From Aneurinibacillus sp. (GTDB lineage: Bacteria > Bacillota > UBA5301 > DYFA01): 57,666 bases of DNA. The DNA lies in NCBI GenBank assembly GCA_020725425.1, contig DYFA01000063.1:1-57666 (forward strand), read 5' to 3'. A model generated the notes under the pieces. It saw only the letters and a list, made by a program, of their open reading frames with translations. It was not told the origin of the DNA and did not search any database. Made by a program: the position numbers and the translations under genes. Shown piece by piece: positions 9,409 to 52,796 of this stretch. Position 1 is the first letter of the stretch. Each line of letters begins with the position of its first letter.

Positions 9409-11892
9409 GTGCGGCACCCAACCGGGGCAGGCTGTCTTCTGCAACTGTCAGGCCTGGAGTCGGCTCCCGCCTTCCCGGTCGTTCACCTGCCTGTCTTGTC
9501 CGTCACCGGGTTTCTCCTGGGGCGAGTCTCGCTGTTCGGCCGGCTTCACCCCTTCGGGCTGGCTTTGGCCGGCGCCTTTGCCGGGGCCGGCGCTCCTTGG
9601 GAGGCGGCGCTCGCCGGCCTGGGGGCCGTCGCCGGACTGGCCTCCCTCGACGTGACCCGGGTCGGGGAGTACCTCCCGGCGCTGCTGCTTCTGGAGGCGG
9701 TGGCGTGGCACCGGCGGACCGCGCCGGGGTCCGCGACCGGGGAGAGAGCTGACCGCCGGTCCGGCCGGGAGCCGGTGTTGCTCTGGACGGCAGCGCTGGG
9801 GACGGTGGCGACGGCGCTCGGCCGGGTGGGGTGGGAGCTCTGGGCCCGCCGCTCGGCCTTCGATCTTGGGCTGCTCCTGCTGGAGGCGGTGGGAGCTGGG
9901 CTGTTGGCAGCGCTGTTGCGGGAAGCGCTGGCCGCGATATCCGGGCTTGGGGCCGGCCGCCGCCCGGGCCGGGAGGAGATCGCCGGTCTGGCGTTGCTGG
10001 CCACTCTCCTTGTGACGGGGCTGGAGGGGTTCGGCCTCGGTGCGCTCTCGCTTCAGGACGCCGCCACCCGCTGGGTAGTGCTCGCCGCGGCCTGGGGGGC
10101 CGGGGCGGGCGCCGGGGCGGTGGCCGGCACGGTGACCGGCTGCGTGGGGATGTTGCTCGGCAACGTGCCCTTGTACTTCGTGAGCGCTTACGCCCTTGCC
10201 GGGACTCTCGGCGGCTTGGTGCGGGAGTGGGGTAAGCCGGCGGTGGCCGGCGGGTTCTTCCTCGGCACTCTCATTCTCAGCTATCAGATACCCCGGGCGG
10301 GGGAGTTGACTGGCGTCCTGTTGGCCACCGGCCTGGCGGCACTGGCCTTCAGCGTCACGCCGGCCAGTCTCGCCGCCTGCCTGGCAGCGGGATGGCCAAC
10401 CGGGCGGCGGGCCAGGACGAGCCGCAGGGTTGAAGCGGACAAGCTCCAGGAGACGTTCGCCCGCCGGCTGCAAGACTTCTCCTCCGTCTTCAAGGAACTG
10501 GCGCGCATCTTCCGCGTGCCCCCGCCCCCCTACGGAGAAGGCGAACGGCCCGAGTTGGCCCGACTCATGGAGGCCGTGGCTGAGCGGGCCTGTGTCTCCT
10601 GCGCCGAGGCGACCGAGTGCTGGAAAGACCGCTTCTACCTGACCTACCGGGACGTGATGGAGTTGCTCAGCCGGGCGGAGACGCTGGGCCGGGCCACTCT
10701 GCTCGATGTGCCGGAGGGTTTGCGCCGCTGCCCCCAGGTCCACAAGGTCGTCTCCGCCGTCAACCAACTGCTCGAGCTGAACAAGCTCAATTCGCTCTGG
10801 GAGCGGAAGGTGACCGAGAGCAAGCAGATCGTGTACGGCCAGCTCAACGGGGTGGCGGAGTTGATGGAGAGCCTGGCCCGGGAAGCCCGGCTGGGCGCCG
10901 CCGGCGCCTGCACCGAGTGGGAGGAAGAGGTCCGGGCGGTGCTGGATCGCTACGGCGTTCCGGTCGAGGACGTGGCCGCCACGACCTTGAGCAAGGGAAG
11001 GGTGGCGATCGAGGTGCGCCGGCGCCCGTGCGACGGCCGGGAGCAGTGCCGCCGCCTCCTTCCGGAGCTGCTCACCCAGGCGGTCGGTCAGGCCTACAGC
11101 CTGTATGAGTCGGAGTGCGGGCGGGCCAGCCGCCGCGACCGCTGCCTCCTGCGCTACCTGCCGGAGCGGGCCTACGACCTGGTGGTCCAGGTGGCCAAGT
11201 GCGCCGGGAACGGCGGCCAGATCTGCGGGGACTCCCACGCGGTGATCGACCTCCCGGGAGGCAAGACGGCGGTCGTGCTCTCCGACGGCATGGGCGTCGG
11301 CCCCGAGGCGGCGCTGGAGAGTTCCGCAGCGATCGACGTGCTGACCCAGCTCATGAAGGCGGGGTTCGAGCGGGAGTTCGCCGTCCGCACCGTCAACTCG
11401 ATCCTGCTCCTGCGCTCCCAGGACGAGAGCTTCGCCACCGTGGACATGATGCTGGTGGATCTTTACACGGGGGAGGCCGAGTTCGTCAAGATCGGCGCCT
11501 GTCCCTCCTATATCCGACGGGACGGCGAGGTCCGCGTCGTCGAGCGGCCGTCGCTCCCGGCAGGCATTCTGAGCGCGATCGACGTCGAGGTGAAGGAACT
11601 GCTCCTGCGCCCCGGCGACCTTGTGGTCATGGTGACCGACGGGTTGCTCGAGGGCGAGGGTCCCGCCCAGGCGGGAAGAGAGCCCTCGGACTGGATTCCG
11701 GCGGCGCTGGCCGGGTTCACGGAGATCGATCCGGCCGCCGTCGCCCAGAAACTTTTGGCGCAGGCCCGCATGACCCGCGGTGATCGAGTCGGGGATGACA
11801 TGACGGTGCTGGTGAGCCAGGTAAAGCGGCGAGCGGACTTCTGCCTCCCCCAAGCCCTCGTCGGCGCCTGGCCGGACGCCCGCCTCGTCTGA
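9409..11892 (+). CDS. spoIIE: Stage II sporulation protein E, membrane serine phosphatase
   Basis: SpoIIE dephosphorylates the anti-anti-sigma factor SpoIIAA to release sigma-F in the forespore, and it interacts with FtsZ at the polar septum. The 827-residue length matches the family. About ten membrane segments (residues 20-330) are followed by a Cys-containing linker (CVSCAEATECWKD) and a helical regulatory region. The C-terminal PP2C domain starts near residue 590, with metal-binding acidic residues in VVLSDGMGVGPEA and VMVTDGLLEG. The GTG at 9409 follows GGGGGAG. It is preceded by a Spo0A-type promoter and followed by a strong terminator at 11923-11946. It is not linked to other sporulation genes here. 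Confidence 0.95.
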   Translation: MRHPTGAGCLLQLSGLESAPAFPVVHLPVLSVTGFLLGRVSLFGRLHPFGLALAGAFAGAGAPWEAALAGLGAVAGLASLDVTRVGEYLPALLLLEAVAWHRRTAPGSATGERADRRSGREPVLLWTAALGTVATALGRVGWELWARRSAFDLGLLLLEAVGAGLLAALLREALAAISGLGAGRRPGREEIAGLALLATLLVTGLEGFGLGALSLQDAATRWVVLAAAWGAGAGAGAVAGTVTGCVGMLLGNVPLYFVSAYALAGTLGGLVREWGKPAVAGGFFLGTLILSYQIPRAGELTGVLLATGLAALAFSVTPASLAACLAAGWPTGRRARTSRRVEADKLQETFARRLQDFSSVFKELARIFRVPPPPYGEGERPELARLMEAVAERACVSCAEATECWKDRFYLTYRDVMELLSRAETLGRATLLDVPEGLRRCPQVHKVVSAVNQLLELNKLNSLWERKVTESKQIVYGQLNGVAELMESLAREARLGAAGACTEWEEEVRAVLDRYGVPVEDVAATTLSKGRVAIEVRRRPCDGREQCRRLLPELLTQAVGQAYSLYESECGRASRRDRCLLRYLPERAYDLVVQVAKCAGNGGQICGDSHAVIDLPGGKTAVVLSDGMGVGPEAALESSAAIDVLTQLMKAGFEREFAVRTVNSILLLRSQDESFATVDMMLVDLYTGEAEFVKIGACPSYIRRDGEVRVVERPSLPAGILSAIDVEVKELLLRPGDLVVMVTDGLLEGEGPAQAGREPSDWIPAALAGFTEIDPAAVAQKLLAQARMTRGDRVGDDMTVLVSQVKRRADFCLPQALVGAWPDARLV

Positions 11893-11922
11893 CCTCCCCC
11901 CGTCCCCGGCCCACCTGCGCCC

Positions 11923-11946
11923 GGCTGCCGCAAGGCAGCCTTTTTT
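11923..11946 (+). terminator. Rho-independent terminator of spoIIE
   Basis: GGCTGCC (11923-11929), a GCAA tetraloop, GGCAGCC (11934-11940), then TTTTTT. It separates spoIIE from tilS and argues against tilS starts upstream of about 11950. Confidence 0.95.
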
Positions 11947-12021
11947 CTGTTCTTGGGCATACTGGAGCTCGCTGACAGGAAGCTCTCTATGGGCGGCGAA
12001 GAGTACAGCGGGGGTGGGAGA

Positions 12022-13521
12022 GTGGCGGACCTCCTCGGGCAGGTGCGGCGGACGATCGAGCGGCACCGCATGCTAGCCTCGGGCGACCGGGTCGTGGTGG
12101 CCGTCTCCGGCGGCCCCGACTCGGTGGCGCTTGCCCATCTCCTCTGGCGGCTCGCCGGCGAGTATTCCCTCTCCCTCCATGTGGCCCACCTGAACCACCA
12201 GTTTCGGGGGGAGGAGTCCGAGGCCGAGGCGCGCCTGGTGGCGGAACTCGCCGCCGGTTGGGGCTTGCCCTGCACGGTGGAGGCGGTGGATGTCCCGGCT
12301 TATCTCGCCCTTCACGGGGGATCGGCCGAGGCGGTAGCCCGGCGGCTGCGGTACGCCTTTCTGGAACGGGTGGCCCGGGCGGCCGACGCCTCCCGGATCG
12401 CCCTCGGTCACCAGGCCGACGACCTGGCCGAGACGGTGTTGATGAACCTGTTGCGCGGCGCCGGTCCCCGCGGCCTCTCCGGCATCCCGCCGGTCCGGGC
12501 CGGGCGATACATCCGTCCGCTGCTCGAGACCGGCCGGGGGGAGATCCTGGCGTACCTCGAGGCGGAAGGGCTGCCTTACCGCCTGGACTCCTCCAACGCC
12601 TCCCCGGTCTTCTTCCGCAACCGCGTCCGGCATCAACTCCTGCCCTACCTGGAGCGCGAGTTCGCCCCGAACCTCCGGGCCATCCTGGCCCGGACCGCCG
12701 ACATCCTGCGGGCGGAAGACGAATACCTGGAAGGAGTGGCCGCTCACCTCCGGACGGCGCTGATGACGGCGCGTCGGGGAAAGGGGTCCGCAACTGTCCT
12801 CGATGGGTTCACCTACGACTGCGCGGACCTGGCGGGCCTGCCGCCGGCGCTCCTGCGCCGGCTGGTCCGGCAGGTCTGGGCGGAGCTCGCCGGCGAGGCG
12901 GCGGAAGCCGAAGAGGACTTCCCCGGTGAGGGGCGCCTCAGCTACGAGCGGGTCGAGGCGGTCGTGGCCCTGGTCCGCGAGGGGCGAACCGGCGCCCGCC
13001 TGGAGCTGCCGGGCGGTGTTACCGTCCGCCGCCGCTACACCCAACTGCTCTGGGAGCGCTGTCCGCCCGGCCAGGCTGAGCCCGTTCCAGTCCCTCCGGT
13101 GGAACTGAAGGTGCCGGGTGAGACGTTAATCCCCGCGACGGGATTGATCCTGGAGGTGGAAGAACGGGCGGTGACCGACGCCGCGGAGGCTGCCCGGCTG
13201 GTGGAGGAGGTCAAAGCCGCCGGGCCCTTCTCCGCCGCCCTCGACGCCGATCGGCTGGAACCGCCGCTCGTGGCGCGCCGGCGGCGCCCGGGCGACCGGT
13301 TCCGGCCGTTGGGAGCGCCAGGGGAGAAGAAGCTCAAGGATTACCTGATCGACGCCAAAATCCCGGCGGAGGAGCGGAAGAATCTCGTCCTGGTGGCCGA
13401 CCGGCAGGGAAGGCGCCCGGTATGGCTGGTCGGCGACCGGCCGGCCGAGGCGGTGAAGGTCACCGGCGCCACCCGCCGGGTCCTGCTTCTTAGGGTCTGC
13501 CCAGCCCGCTGCGAATTGTAA
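12022..13521 (+). CDS. tilS: tRNA(Ile)-lysidine synthase
   Basis: TilS makes lysidine at C34 of tRNA-Ile(CAU), changing it from Met to Ile identity and AUG to AUA reading. The PP-loop ATP-binding motif SGGPDS is at about residues 29-34 of the 499-residue product. HLNHQFRGEESEAEA and GHQADDLAETVLMNLLRG follow, as in all TilS. The C-terminal TilS domain includes ARRRRPGDRFRPLG and KKLKDYLIDAKIP. I chose GTG 12022 because it gives the usual family N-terminus; ATG 11989 and TTG 11953 are alternatives. tilS followed by ftsH is a standard Firmicutes arrangement. Its last bases contain the -35 of the ftsH promoter. Confidence 0.95.
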   Translation: MADLLGQVRRTIERHRMLASGDRVVVAVSGGPDSVALAHLLWRLAGEYSLSLHVAHLNHQFRGEESEAEARLVAELAAGWGLPCTVEAVDVPAYLALHGGSAEAVARRLRYAFLERVARAADASRIALGHQADDLAETVLMNLLRGAGPRGLSGIPPVRAGRYIRPLLETGRGEILAYLEAEGLPYRLDSSNASPVFFRNRVRHQLLPYLEREFAPNLRAILARTADILRAEDEYLEGVAAHLRTALMTARRGKGSATVLDGFTYDCADLAGLPPALLRRLVRQVWAELAGEAAEAEEDFPGEGRLSYERVEAVVALVREGRTGARLELPGGVTVRRRYTQLLWERCPPGQAEPVPVPPVELKVPGETLIPATGLILEVEERAVTDAAEAARLVEEVKAAGPFSAALDADRLEPPLVARRRRPGDRFRPLGAPGEKKLKDYLIDAKIPAEERKNLVLVADRQGRRPVWLVGDRPAEAVKVTGATRRVLLLRVCPARCEL

Positions 13522-28228: not shown

Positions 28229-28323
28229 GCAATAGAAGATGCGATGGAGTTCGCAGGACAGTTCCCGTCCACCGCCACTTGGCTGATGACTCCTACCTAC
28301 AACACGGGCAGGAGTTTTCTTTT
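28229..28323 (+). ncRNA. Fluoride riboswitch (crcB motif) with terminator
   Basis: The conserved core is visible: GATGGAGTTCGC (about 28244-28255) and CTGATGACTCCTAC (28283-28296). ACTCCT (28289-28294) can pair with AGGAGT (28310-28315) followed by TTTCTTTT, an intrinsic terminator that competes with the aptamer. Fluoride binding should allow read-through into the DUF190 and crcB genes. TACAAT at 28216-28221 is a likely -10. Confidence 0.9.
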
Positions 28324-28386
28324 GCCCGATGCGATGAGAGGCCGGCCGGACAGGCGTCCCGGCGGCCAAACAGAAAGGAGAGGGCC

Positions 28387-28740
28387 ATGAAAATCGAGGG
28401 TCAAGGGCGCGAGTTGCGGATCTACATCGGCGAAAGCGATCGCTATGGTGGCAAGCCGCTGTACCGGGCCATTGTGGAGATGATGAAGCGGGAGGGTCTC
28501 GCCGGGGTCACGGTGATGCGGGGGATCGAGGGTTTCGGGGCCAACAGCCGCATCCACACGGCCAACATCCTGCGCCTCTCTGAAGATCTCCCGCTGGTCA
28601 TCGTCACAGTGGACTCCCAGCAGAAGATCGATAAAGTGCTCCCCCGGTTGAATGAGATGGTGACCGAAGGCTTGATCACGATCCACGACGTGGACGTGAT
28701 CAAGTACACTCACAACGGAGAGAAGATCCAACAAAAGTAG
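28387..28740 (+). CDS. DUF190 family PII-like protein
   Basis: A 117-residue protein of the DUF190 family (PII-like ferredoxin fold). Typical segments are LRIYIGESDRYGGKPLYRAI, EGLAGVTVMRGIEGFG, and DLPLVIVTVDSQQKIDKVLP. Genes of this family commonly sit beside crcB, and a role in regulating or assisting fluoride export is inferred from that. The ATG at 28387 follows AAAGGAGAGGG. It is the first gene after the fluoride riboswitch and 35 nt ahead of crcB. Confidence 0.9.
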   Translation: MKIEGQGRELRIYIGESDRYGGKPLYRAIVEMMKREGLAGVTVMRGIEGFGANSRIHTANILRLSEDLPLVIVTVDSQQKIDKVLPRLNEMVTEGLITIHDVDVIKYTHNGEKIQQK

Positions 28741-28775: not shown

Positions 28776-29150
28776 GTGTACAAGCTCCTCGCGGTGGCCC
28801 TGGGCGGGCTTCTCGGTGCCTCGGCCCGTTACCTCGTCTCCGGCTGGGCGCAGAGGGCCTGGGGATCGTCGTTCCCCTGGGGCACGGCCCTCGTCAACAT
28901 CGTCGGGTGCTTTCTCATCGGCTACCTGATGACGTATAGCGTTGAGATCTCCCCCATGCGGGTGGAACTGCGCCTGTTCCTGGTTACGGGGATTCTCGGA
29001 GGATTCACGACGTTCTCGGCCTTCGGGTACGAGACCATGCGCTTCGTCCAGGACGGCGCATCGCTCTTGGCGTTGGCGAACCTGGGGCTGAATCTCATTG
29101 CGGGGCTTGGGGCCGTGATGTTGGGCACCTGGCTCGCCAGGACTCTCTAA
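28776..29150 (+). CDS. crcB: Fluoride ion channel/exporter CrcB (Fluc)
   Basis: A 124-residue, four-helix membrane protein that forms dual-topology dimers and lets F- leave the cell. Family signatures are GGLLGASARYLVSGW at the N-terminus, the pore segment GTALVNIVGCFLIGYL with its Asn, and GILGGFTTFSAFGYET with the Phe box (FTTFS). The GTG at 28776 follows AAAGGATG. It is regulated by the fluoride riboswitch at 28229-28323. Confidence 0.95.
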   Translation: MYKLLAVALGGLLGASARYLVSGWAQRAWGSSFPWGTALVNIVGCFLIGYLMTYSVEISPMRVELRLFLVTGILGGFTTFSAFGYETMRFVQDGASLLALANLGLNLIAGLGAVMLGTWLARTL

Positions 29151-47270: not shown

Positions 47271-47858
47271 ATGATCATGGTGTTGGAAGCCACCCCTCCC
47301 GCCGCGGCGGAGGTGCTTCGGCTGCTTGACGGGCCGGGTGGCGGGGCTGGGGCGGGTAAAGCGGTGGAGGAGGCGGCCCGCCGCGCCGCGGCGACCGCCG
47401 AGCCCCGGGCGGCCGTCGGGCTGGTCGACCGCGGCGCGGCACTGTGGCCGCGCCTTCCCCCGGAATTGGCGGAGGCGGAGGTCGTTCAGGCGGCCGTGGT
47501 CACCCTCGGAGGGGCCCTGGAGGAGGAGGTCCGCCGCCTGTTCCAAGGGGGCCGGGCGGCGGAGGGCCTTTACTTGGATGCTGCAGGGAACGCCTTGCTC
47601 AGGGCAGCCACTCGGGAGGTCTGCTGTTGCCTGGAGGGCGTGTGGCTGGCTCCCGGCTGCCCAGGTGTGCCTCTTCCTCTGCTCCCGGAGATTGCTGTAG
47701 CTGCCGGGTGTTGGAGGATCGGGGTCGAGACGCTGCCGAGCGGCATGCTGAAGCCCGGGAAGAGCGTGGCAGGCCTGATCGTCCGGGGTGCCGGGGTCTG
47801 GCCGCCTGCCTGTGACAGTTGCACCTCTCCGGTCTGTCCCTGGCGCGGGCGGAGGTGA
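47271..47858 (+). CDS. MetH activation-domain-like corrinoid protein factor
   Basis: A 195-residue protein. The C-terminal half follows the vitamin B12-dependent methionine synthase activation domain: LYLDAAGNALLRAA, then CPGVPLPLLPEIAVAAG, IGVETLPSGMLKPGKSVAGL, and a CDSCTSPVCPWR ending that mirrors C-x-x-C-x-x-x-x-C-P-x-R of the stand-alone family. These proteins help reactivate or bind the corrinoid of methyltransferases. The next gene is a RACo-like activator, which supports the role. ATG 47271 has no good Shine-Dalgarno; ATG 47277 is the alternative. Confidence 0.75.
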   Translation: MIMVLEATPPAAAEVLRLLDGPGGGAGAGKAVEEAARRAAATAEPRAAVGLVDRGAALWPRLPPELAEAEVVQAAVVTLGGALEEEVRRLFQGGRAAEGLYLDAAGNALLRAATREVCCCLEGVWLAPGCPGVPLPLLPEIAVAAGCWRIGVETLPSGMLKPGKSVAGLIVRGAGVWPPACDSCTSPVCPWRGRR

Positions 47859-47862
47859 TGGG

Positions 47863-49530
47863 ATGCGGCTGAGCTTTGTCCTCCCTGAAGGGGAGGCGCC
47901 GGTGGAGGGGGACTTTCCGCTTGGACGGGGAGTCACCGTGTGGGAGGCGGCCCGGCGGCTCGGCCTGCCGCTGGCTGTGCCTTGCGGGGGGCAGGGTCTG
48001 TGCGGGAAGTGCGCCGTCCGCCTCCACCCCGCCCCGCCGCCGACCCCCCGGGAGCGGCGCCTCTTGACGGCGGAGCAACTGGCGCGGGGCACCCGACTGG
48101 CCTGCCTGTGCCAGCCGGAGGAGAGCGCGGTCGTCCAGGTGGAGGAGGCGCCCCCGTCCCCCCGCCCGGCGGCGGCCTTCCCGGCGGTGGTCCCGGTGGA
48201 CCCGGGACAGGAGGGGTGGGGCGTGGCGGTCGACCTGGGCACCACGACCCTCTCCGCCGGGTGCGTGGACCTGGCCACCGGGGCCGTCCTGGCAGCCGCC
48301 ACGGCGTCCAACCCCCAGGTCCAGTACGGGGACGACGTCCTGGCCCGGCTGGGCTACGCCCTCAAAGGGCCCGCCGCCCGGGAAGAGTTGCGTCGCGCCG
48401 TCCTGGAAGGGCTCAACGCCTTGATCGCAAAGGTCGCGGCCGAGGCGGGGGTGCCAGTGGAGCGCCTGGAAAGCGCCGTGGTGGTCGGCAACCCCGCCAT
48501 GCACCACCTCCTGTTGGGCCTGGAGGTGACACACTTGGCCCGCGCCCCTCACCAGCCCGTGTCGCTTGAGGCCCGGGACGAGGCGGCTGCGGCGCTCGGG
48601 CTGTCCCTGGCGGAGGAGGTCCGGGTTTACCTGCCGCCGCTGGTGGGGGGATTCGTCGGCTCCGACGCTTTGGCGATGGGCCTGGCGGAAGGACTTTTGA
48701 CGCCGGGCGGGCGGCGGCTGGCGGTGGACCTCGGAACGAACGGCGAAGCGCTCCTGGCTACCCCGGATGGGGTCTACGCCTGCTCGACGGCGGCCGGGCC
48801 GGCGTTCGAAGGGGGCGGCCTCCGCTGCGGCCTGCGGGCTGGGCCCGGAGCCGTCGTGGCGGTGGAGCCCGGCCGGCCGTTAACCGTCCATACGCTGGAC
48901 GGGTCAGCCCCGCGGGGACTGGCCGGCTCGGGGGTCCTCAGCGCGGCCGCCACGCTTCTGGCGCTGGGAGCTCTGACCCCGAACGGCCGGCTGCGCTCGC
49001 CGGACGAACTGCCGGAGTCGCCGTGGCCCGGCCTGGCGGAGCGCCTGGTCGCTCTCCCGGGCGGCCTCCGGGCGGCGGTGCTTGTCCCGGCGGGCGAGAC
49101 GGCCACCGGCGCCGACCTGGTGCTCACCCAGAACGACCTCCGCCACCTCCAGCTGGCCAAGGGTGCCCTGCGGGCCGGGGTGGAGGCTCTCCTCCGCAGG
49201 GCGGGGGTGGACGCCGGGGAGCTGGATGAGGTTCTGCTGGCAGGGGCTTTCAGCCAGGGTCTGCTTCCGGAAAACGCCCTGGCCACCGGCCTCTTGCCCC
49301 CGGTAGCCGCAGCCCGCGTGCGGGCGGTCGGAAACGCGGCCTGGCGTGGCGCCGCCCTCCTTCTCGGTCGCCCTTCCCTGCGAGAGCAAGCAGCCGAGGC
49401 GGCAGGCCGCATCGTGCACGTCCCGCTGGCCGACGATCCCGACTTTGCGGCGCTGTACCTTGCCGCCCTGGACTTCCCGGTGTCCCCGGCCGGGAGCGGT
49501 AGCCGCCGGCCGGGAGGGTCGGCCGTCTGA
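47863..49530 (+). CDS. RACo-like corrinoid activation protein (2Fe-2S + ASKHA ATPase, DUF4445)
   Basis: A 555-residue ATP-dependent reductive activator of corrinoid proteins. An N-terminal plant-type ferredoxin domain carries [10 protein letters not shown] and CLC (2Fe-2S ligands, residues 43-90). The ASKHA ATPase domain follows from about 125: [54 protein letters not shown] and [10 protein letters not shown]. It would use ATP to drive one-electron reduction of Co(II) to Co(I). The ATG at 47863 follows GGAGGTGA. No corrinoid methyltransferase is encoded in the window. Confidence 0.9.
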
Positions 49531-51278: not shown

Positions 51279-51740
51279 TCAGGCAAAGAGTTCTCGCGTG
51301 TGCTCGGTGGGGAGGTACCGCCCCCGGCGGACCCGCCGGGCGAAGAGCTTGTCGGGCGAGTTGCGCTTGCTGACCATGGCGGCCAGCGCCCAGCTCAACT
51401 GCTCGGCGCGCAGAGCGTCGATGTTCTGGTCGCGCAGGAAGAGCGCCATTTGACGGGCGGTGTAGCCGGCCGGGTTTGGCGAGGATTCGTGAAGCTGCTG
51501 CAGGGCGTAGGCCGCCTTCTGGAGGTTCGAGACCAAGCGGGGCTTTCCGCCTTCAGGCTCACCGGCGGAAGAGGGGGGTGGAACCCGTTCGGCGCCGGCG
51601 CCGGAGGAGCGGCGGGCCGTTTTCTTGGCCTGAGCGGCGATGGCTTCCCCTTCCTCCCCGACCAAAAGGGAGCGGAGCTTGAGCCAACGGGCCCGGTCTT
51701 TGAGGATTTGTTCTGAGACATTGACCCTGATCTCCAACAC
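51279..51740 (-). CDS. Hypothetical protein with helical C-terminal domain
   Basis: A 153-residue basic protein. Residues 1-35 are charged and helical. Residues 36-70 are a flexible Ala/Ser/Pro-rich linker. Residues 75-150 form a compact helical domain (LQQLHESSPNPAGYTARQMA, RAEQLSWALAAMVSKRN, RRVRRGRYLPTEHTREL) that could be a winged-helix DNA-binding fold. No family recognised. The GTG at 51740 follows GAGGTGG. Confidence 0.6.
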   Translation of the reverse strand: MLEIRVNVSEQILKDRARWLKLRSLLVGEEGEAIAAQAKKTARRSSGAGAERVPPPSSAGEPEGGKPRLVSNLQKAAYALQQLHESSPNPAGYTARQMALFLRDQNIDALRAEQLSWALAAMVSKRNSPDKLFARRVRRGRYLPTEHTRELFA

Positions 51741-51900: not shown

Positions 51901-52236
51901 TCAGCCTCCGCACGACCCCGAGCAGGAACCGCAAGCGCTCTCATCGAGCTGGTCCGGGCGGATTACGAAACCCTCGCCGGTATCGTTCTGGAGGAAGTCC
52001 ACGGTCAGGGGGCCGGCGGCGTCCGCCTCGCTCTTGTCGATCACGAACCGGAGGCCCCCCAATTCCGCGGTCACGTCTTTTTCCGGGTCAGACGACTCAT
52101 CCAGAGCCATTCCAAAGTTGGGTCCGCTTCAGCCATAACCCCGGAGGTAGATGCGGATGAGGCTCGGCCCGCTCTCCTCCCGGCCGGTCAAGATCTCCCG
52201 GATCTTTTCCTGGGCCTTTTCGGTGACGGTCAACAT
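51901..52236 (-). CDS. HesB/IscA-like selenoprotein (in-frame UGA = Sec)
   Basis: A 111-residue protein read through an in-frame TGA at 52131-52129 (residue 36). Before it: MLTVTEKAQEKIREILTGRE, then RIYLRGYG. After it, in the same frame: SGPNFGMALDES, DVTAELGGLRFVIDKSEA, GPLTVDFLQNDTGEGFVI and CGSCSGSCGG. The HesB/IscA family has Cys exactly at the TGA (G-Y-G-C-S/G-G-P-x-F-G), and HesB-like selenoproteins are known in bacteria. The best hairpin I can draw after the UGA (52124-52104) is weak, so the bSECIS element is unproven. Possible role in Fe-S cluster carriage. The ATG at 52236 has AAGAAGG upstream. Automatic annotation will usually split or truncate this gene. Confidence 0.85.
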
Positions 52237-52327
52237 GTTTCTACCTTCTTTCCGGGCGATTCCAGTGGTTGCGGGAGCCGGCACCCTCGCCGCCACGCAC
52301 GGTTCCATGGTACCAAGAGTCGCCGCG

Positions 52328-52642
52328 CTAGTCAAGCCGGGGAGGTTTCTGGCGGGCTTTAAGCGTCCGCAGGAGGTGGAACCGGTCAGCCACGTCCGCG
52401 CTCAACATGAAGAGAGCGGTCAGGGCGAACCAGGCCGCGAGGAGAGGAACGCCGGGCCACTGCCCCCCGCTGGCCGCCAGGGCGACGAAGGGCGGAAGGA
52501 GGAAGAGGCGGGAGAGGATCACCGCCCAGCGCCAGGGGCTGGGACCCGCGGCGGCCGTCCTCTGGCGCTGGACGGCCACGGTGCTGTAGATGACGAGCAG
52601 GACTCCTGCCACACTCACGAGGAGGATGAGCCATCGCACCAC
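52328..52642 (-). CDS. Small membrane protein, unknown
   Basis: A 104-residue protein with about three hydrophobic segments (LILLVSVAGVLLVIYSTVAV, ILSRLFLLPPFVALAAS, VPLLAAWFALTALFMLSADV) and a basic C-terminus. No family recognised. The GTG at 52642 (or the next codon, 52639) follows GAGGTGG. The longer frame up to 52984 overlaps the ECF gene on the other strand and is rejected. Confidence 0.6.
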   Translation of the reverse strand: MVRWLILLVSVAGVLLVIYSTVAVQRQRTAAAGPSPWRWAVILSRLFLLPPFVALAASGGQWPGVPLLAAWFALTALFMLSADVADRFHLLRTLKARQKPPRLD

Positions 52643-52796
52643 GCCGACCACCTCGCGCCCTATCATACCCGAAGGCCGGCCAGACATCCAGACATAAAGA
52701 AGGAATTGCCCGGACCTCCGCCGAAAAGGCAGAGAGCGCCCAGGCGCAAACGTCCGGTACCGCCGCCAGGCGGACTGGAACGGGAGGGAATGACAA

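Follow-up and report, generated by a model that had tools for sequence, protein, structure and literature searches.

A predicted HesB/IscA-like selenoprotein gene with an in-frame UGA codon in a draft genome of Aneurinibacillus sp.

INTRODUCTION

HesB-like selenoproteins were catalogued by 2006, when 11 were known (PMC1794560), and the current selenoprotein inventory lists them with the motif UxGP (PMC13188914). The initial annotation of the locus described here had called them a known bacterial group, in agreement with both catalogues. The Methanococcus maripaludis protein MMJJ_08070 is likewise a HesB-like selenoprotein, recognized as such by mutagenesis and 75Se labeling (PMC11097638). Disruption of the Methanococcus member was reported not to affect nitrogen fixation adversely (unpublished observation cited in PMC11097638). 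MMJJ_08070 is archaeal, and the archaeal SECIS lies in the 3' UTR and not in the coding region (PMC1088965).

Here we analyze a gene in a 57,666-nucleotide stretch of DNA from Aneurinibacillus sp. (contig DYFA01000063.1), which we call the window. The predicted product has in common with the HesB-like selenoproteins of TIGR01911 and NF038090 an A-type fold, the sequence U-S-G-P with Sec in place of the first conserved Cys, and a SECIS just downstream. With IscA, SufA, and ErpA it shares the PF01521 domain. However, it differs from these carriers in having Sec for Cys, xGP for the commoner SGF, SGY, or SGL, and CGSCSGSC for the C-terminal CxC.

RESULTS

The frame on the minus strand runs from an ATG at 52236-52234 to a terminal TGA at 51903-51901, and an internal TGA at 52131-52129 is in frame with both. 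The coding sequence (52236-51904) specifies 111 residues, with the TGA at codon 36 as the single interruption. Read-through translation from the ATG at 52236 gives MLTVTEKAQEKIREILTGREESGPSLIRIYLRGYG-U-SGPNFGMALDESSDPEKDVTAELGGLRFVIDKSEADAAGPLTVDFLQNDTGEGFVIRPDQLDESACGSCSGSCGG. The Cys-rich tail SACGSCSGSCGG immediately precedes the terminal TGA, and most Sec-form relatives also stop no more than a few residues past their last Cys. The initial annotation had described two minus-strand frames parted by one in-frame TGA, and its coordinates were exact. It had also held that standard gene calling misses the gene; ORF calling does split the frame at the TGA, into pieces at 52129-52335 and 51901-52110, the second starting from the ATG at 52110. 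When the gene-like frames that end in TGA were judged by eye and by composition across the window, this join was the only credible one. Other TGA-joined frames in the window were rejected, because they appeared to be off-frame continuations or separate adjacent genes.

The family model PF01521 (Fe-S_biosyn, A-type/HesB) matches residues 2 to 92 across the TGA with 37.7 bits (cut-off, 26.3), which places the protein in the family, and homologues align without a break across the TGA position. An AlphaFold2 model (mean pLDDT, 78.3; low confidence in the C-terminal tail) resembles the structures of IscA, SufA, HI1723, and AQ_1857, with Foldseek E values of 7e-7 to 3e-5. Entries 1s98, 1r94, 2d2a, and 2apn are among those that it resembles, with a TM score to 1s98 of 0.73 by query length. 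The predicted fold is thus that of the IscA/SufA/ErpA carriers, and the family profile retrieves the same structure chains (HI1723, IscA, and SufA) by sequence. Sec36 occupies the first conserved Cys column of the A-type proteins, and the motif U36-S-G-P within the A-type domain agrees with the UxGP definition of HesB-like selenoproteins. The tail of the window protein reads CGSCSGSCGG and thus lacks the CxC that is canonical for A-type carriers. The earlier HesB/IscA label therefore fits the fold but not the C terminus, where the canonical CxC is missing. The initial annotation had also called the flanks fully conserved. This overstates the case, because identity to the relatives used is just 31 to 43%, although the motif (C/U)-x-G-P and both halves of the fold are conserved.

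The best NCBIfam model is NF038090 (IscA_HesB_Se), to which the window protein scores 75.4 bits, below the curated cut-off of 85. It also falls below the curated cut-off of TIGR01911 (HesB_rel_seleno), with 38.1 bits against 66.35. The protein is thus a formal member of neither model. The six Sec relatives tested were likewise below both cut-offs, having been scored as partial sequences.

It could be argued that the split seen by ORF calling is real and that the locus yields two products, a 35-residue peptide ending at the UGA and a 69-residue protein from the ATG at 52110. Partial termination is common at Sec UGA codons. However, PF01521 and the predicted A-type fold cover both parts, and the Cys relatives are single uninterrupted frames. 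We consider two separate products highly improbable.

We then compared the codon at this position across the phylum. A first search of 61 genomes gave 16 matches, of which 11 had one internal TGA and one more had a TGA and a TAG. An even sample of 399 genomes across the phylum contained 101 with a homologue, and the TGA form was present in 71 of these. Over 98 distinct homologous sites, window gene included, the aligned codon was TGA in 65, TGC in 25, and TGT in 8. The in-frame UGA is therefore aligned with Cys in homologues, and relatives carry Cys or TGA at the same residue, as expected from the earlier proposal that the conserved HesB/IscA Cys sits at the TGA. Apart from the window gene, 64 distinct homologues have TGA here and 33 have TGC or TGT.

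The genomes with the TGA form are enriched for SelA. It was found in 67 of 71 such genomes. It was less frequent in the other 328 genomes, of which 190 had it (Fisher P = 1.9e-10), and in the 30 with only non-TGA forms, of which 15 had it (P = 9.8e-7). Both tests treat the genomes as independent, though they are related. Three of the four TGA-form genomes without SelA are 63 to 79% complete, and the fourth (G184) is 94% complete.

The Sec and Cys forms also differ around and beyond this codon. Pro is found at the third position after Sec in 59 of 65 TGA forms but after Cys in only six Cys forms; most Cys forms have Phe, Tyr, or Leu there. Cys forms of the SGF/SGY/SGL type mostly end in NPNA..CGCG. 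The Sec forms have short C-terminal tails, for example SC, SCC, or CGSCSGSC; Cys is missing altogether from some of them. A tree of the 98 rows, which has few columns and many weak forks, requires four Sec/Cys changes. The window protein is a long branch among the Sec forms in this tree, at a tentative position. Its nearest named database relatives are MAGs of Peptococcaceae (Bacillota). In one genome (G009) the HesB-like protein has two paralogues, one with Sec and one with Cys (L015 and L028).

A predicted bacterial SECIS hairpin, AUGGCUC[UGGAU]GAGUCGU, lies at 52110-52092 on the minus strand. Its apical loop UGGAU (52103-52099) begins 25 nt downstream of the UGA, and the second base of the loop is G. 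The hairpin thus has the features of a bacterial SECIS, namely a position just downstream and a small, G-containing apical loop. In 12 aligned TGA genes, two-sided compensatory changes were found in five of the seven pairs, against a mean of 1.5 after shuffling. In the same alignment, 90.5% of the cells were paired, and this fell to no more than 46% when the partner was slid. All five inner pairs were kept in 61 of 63 TGA genes, the 63 being those without codon insertions, whereas synonymous recoding kept them in a mean of 3.1 genes and at most 10 in 2,000 trials. Cys genes without xGP had the five inner pairs intact in 0 of 27 cases, and Cys genes with xGP had them in 3 of 6. The hairpin of the window gene itself rests on this family pattern, because the folding energy of its own sequence gave no signal (z = -0.17) and the five inner pairs arise in 7% of its synonymous recodings.

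In three Cys-xGP genes from Peptococcaceae MAGs (L030, L031, and L032), the Cys codon is followed by a SECIS-like hairpin that is intact. The sequences suggest that these genes are Sec-to-Cys conversions with a remnant SECIS. Such a conversion, also with a remnant SECIS, has been described for the HesB-like protein of Desulfitobacterium hafniense (PMC1794560).

The TGA could also have arisen by a nonsense mutation in a pseudogene, or by a sequencing or assembly error in a Cys codon. TGA is one base from TGC and TGT, the genome is a draft of 72 contigs, and the window protein is on a long branch. However, TGA stands at the same column in the 64 other distinct homologues, the hairpin is widely kept among the TGA genes, and both halves of the gene are still open with their motifs conserved. 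The genome also has the machinery for Sec and, besides this gene, two predicted UGA-Sec genes, as described below. We therefore regard a decayed or misread Cys gene as very unlikely.

The initial annotation had predicted that the genome would carry selA, selB, selC, and selD, and all four were found on contig C8, consecutive in the order selC-selD-selA-selB (L013, 10263-5596, minus strand). SelA has an E value of 5e-154. SelD scores 379 bits for TIGR00476, over the cut-off. selB was recognized by reading its ORF sequence. The 5' end of selC (tRNA-Sec) is cut by the contig end; with a truncated end allowed, it scores 55.6 bits and has the anticodon UCA in the loop CUUCAAA. In the initial tRNA-Sec search, tRNA-Ser matches on other contigs had outranked this genuine selC, which lies where C8 ends. 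A 47.6-bit tRNA-Sec candidate on contig C39 was set aside, being a tRNA-Ser(UGA) by ARAGORN.

The search for other UGA-containing genes that the initial annotation had proposed led to SelD and FdhA, in which the UGA occupies sites that are classical for Sec. In SelD the in-frame UGA is codon 26 (TKSG-U-AAK), and SelD is itself a predicted selenoprotein. The formate dehydrogenase alpha subunit FdhA (L124; contig C52 of the source genome, G000, about 11019-12509) has an in-frame UGA in YLEHQARI-U-HSATVAGLG, followed by a strong hairpin downstream. With the HesB-like gene, this brings the predicted UGA-Sec genes of the genome to at least three. FlpD (PF02662) had no match in the source genome, and its AhpC/TSA-family matches had no internal stop. 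The window gene was the only PF01521 match found in the source genome. A weak second match to the HesB-like protein, on contig C12 (E = 0.09), was dropped after PF01521 found only the window gene.

The openness of the frame across the TGA might instead mean that the organism has reassigned UGA or suppresses it generally, and reads it as Trp or another residue and not as Sec. However, TGA is the stop codon of many gene-like frames in the window, the HesB/IscA-like gene among them, the aligned residue in relatives is Cys and not Trp, and a tRNA-Sec with a UCA anticodon is present. General UGA recoding is thus the least credible of the alternatives to Sec decoding.

The same-strand neighbors of the gene, at 51279-51740 and about 52340-52651, had no Pfam family match. 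A promoter-like site, recognized by consensus match only, lies upstream of the gene at 52335-52307 (minus strand). It reads TTGACT-17-TACCAT, and its second hexamer is preceded by TG. Because of this site, the gene may be transcribed alone. Elsewhere in the window, a fluoride riboswitch (Rfam RF01734, 47.2 bits) is found at 28231-28302 on the plus strand; it overlaps the start of an ORF at 28279-28740 and is upstream of an ORF at 28776-29150. A RACo-type reductive activator of corrinoid proteins, with Fer2, RACo middle, and RACo C-terminal domains, is encoded at 47788-49530 on the plus strand. It suggests corrinoid-dependent methyl transfer in the organism.

DISCUSSION

We propose, with a probability of about 95% and on the basis of sequence comparison, that the TGA at 52131-52129 of the HesB/IscA-like gene is decoded as Sec. 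This proposal follows from the Sec machinery and the UGA genes for SelD and FdhA in the genome, the co-occurrence of the TGA form with SelA, the alternation of TGA and Cys, and the conservation of the hairpin. The locus is best explained as a functional gene that encodes a predicted A-type (HesB/IscA-like) selenoprotein of 111 aa. In this scenario, SelA and SelD would make Sec-tRNA(Sec), and SelB with Sec-tRNA(Sec) would read the UGA, guided by the SECIS hairpin. Sec would then stand where A-type proteins have their first conserved Cys. The U36 selenol, together with C102, C105, and C109 of the C-terminal tail, may bind Fe or an Fe-S cluster, or may serve an Fe-S-coupled redox step.

Of these functions, we favor Fe or Fe-S binding by the selenol and the tail thiols, although at about even odds. 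A purely redox role is nearly as likely. The same Sec decoding could well produce a thiol/selenol oxidoreductase and not an Fe or Fe-S binding A-type protein, a possibility to be taken seriously. The canonical CxC of A-type carriers is missing, the Sec forms have short Cys tails or in some cases no Cys, and a review views most uncharacterized selenoproteins as redox proteins (PMC13188914). However, the fold is that of IscA and SufA, Sec falls in the column of the family's first conserved Cys, and the window gene is the sole PF01521 copy found in the genome. More speculatively, and with rather low probability, the Sec-form HesB-like proteins without CxC could be a biochemically distinct class, in which the selenol and the short C-terminal Cys tail carry out a reaction (redox, or the handling of metal or selenium) that A-type carriers do not. 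On this reading, the curated models of today may miss most of these proteins.

The window gene is a new member of the catalogued HesB-like selenoprotein group and is not new in kind. The initial annotation had placed the novelty in the organism. The member is indeed new, but that novelty is slight, since TGA forms are widely distributed across the phylum (71 of the 399 genomes sampled). The quantified SECIS covariation is modestly new. So is the finding that the window member and six sampled Sec relatives score under both NCBIfam cut-offs, which needs to be read with care, the relatives being partial sequences.

Stop-to-stop gene calling would break this predicted selenoprotein gene into two short hypothetical ORFs. 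For the HesB-like selenoprotein family, the locus adds a case well supported by machinery, SECIS covariation, and Sec/Cys alternation. Furthermore, the Sec forms have xGP and lack the CxC tail, whereas most Cys forms have CxC, and this difference makes the functional question testable.
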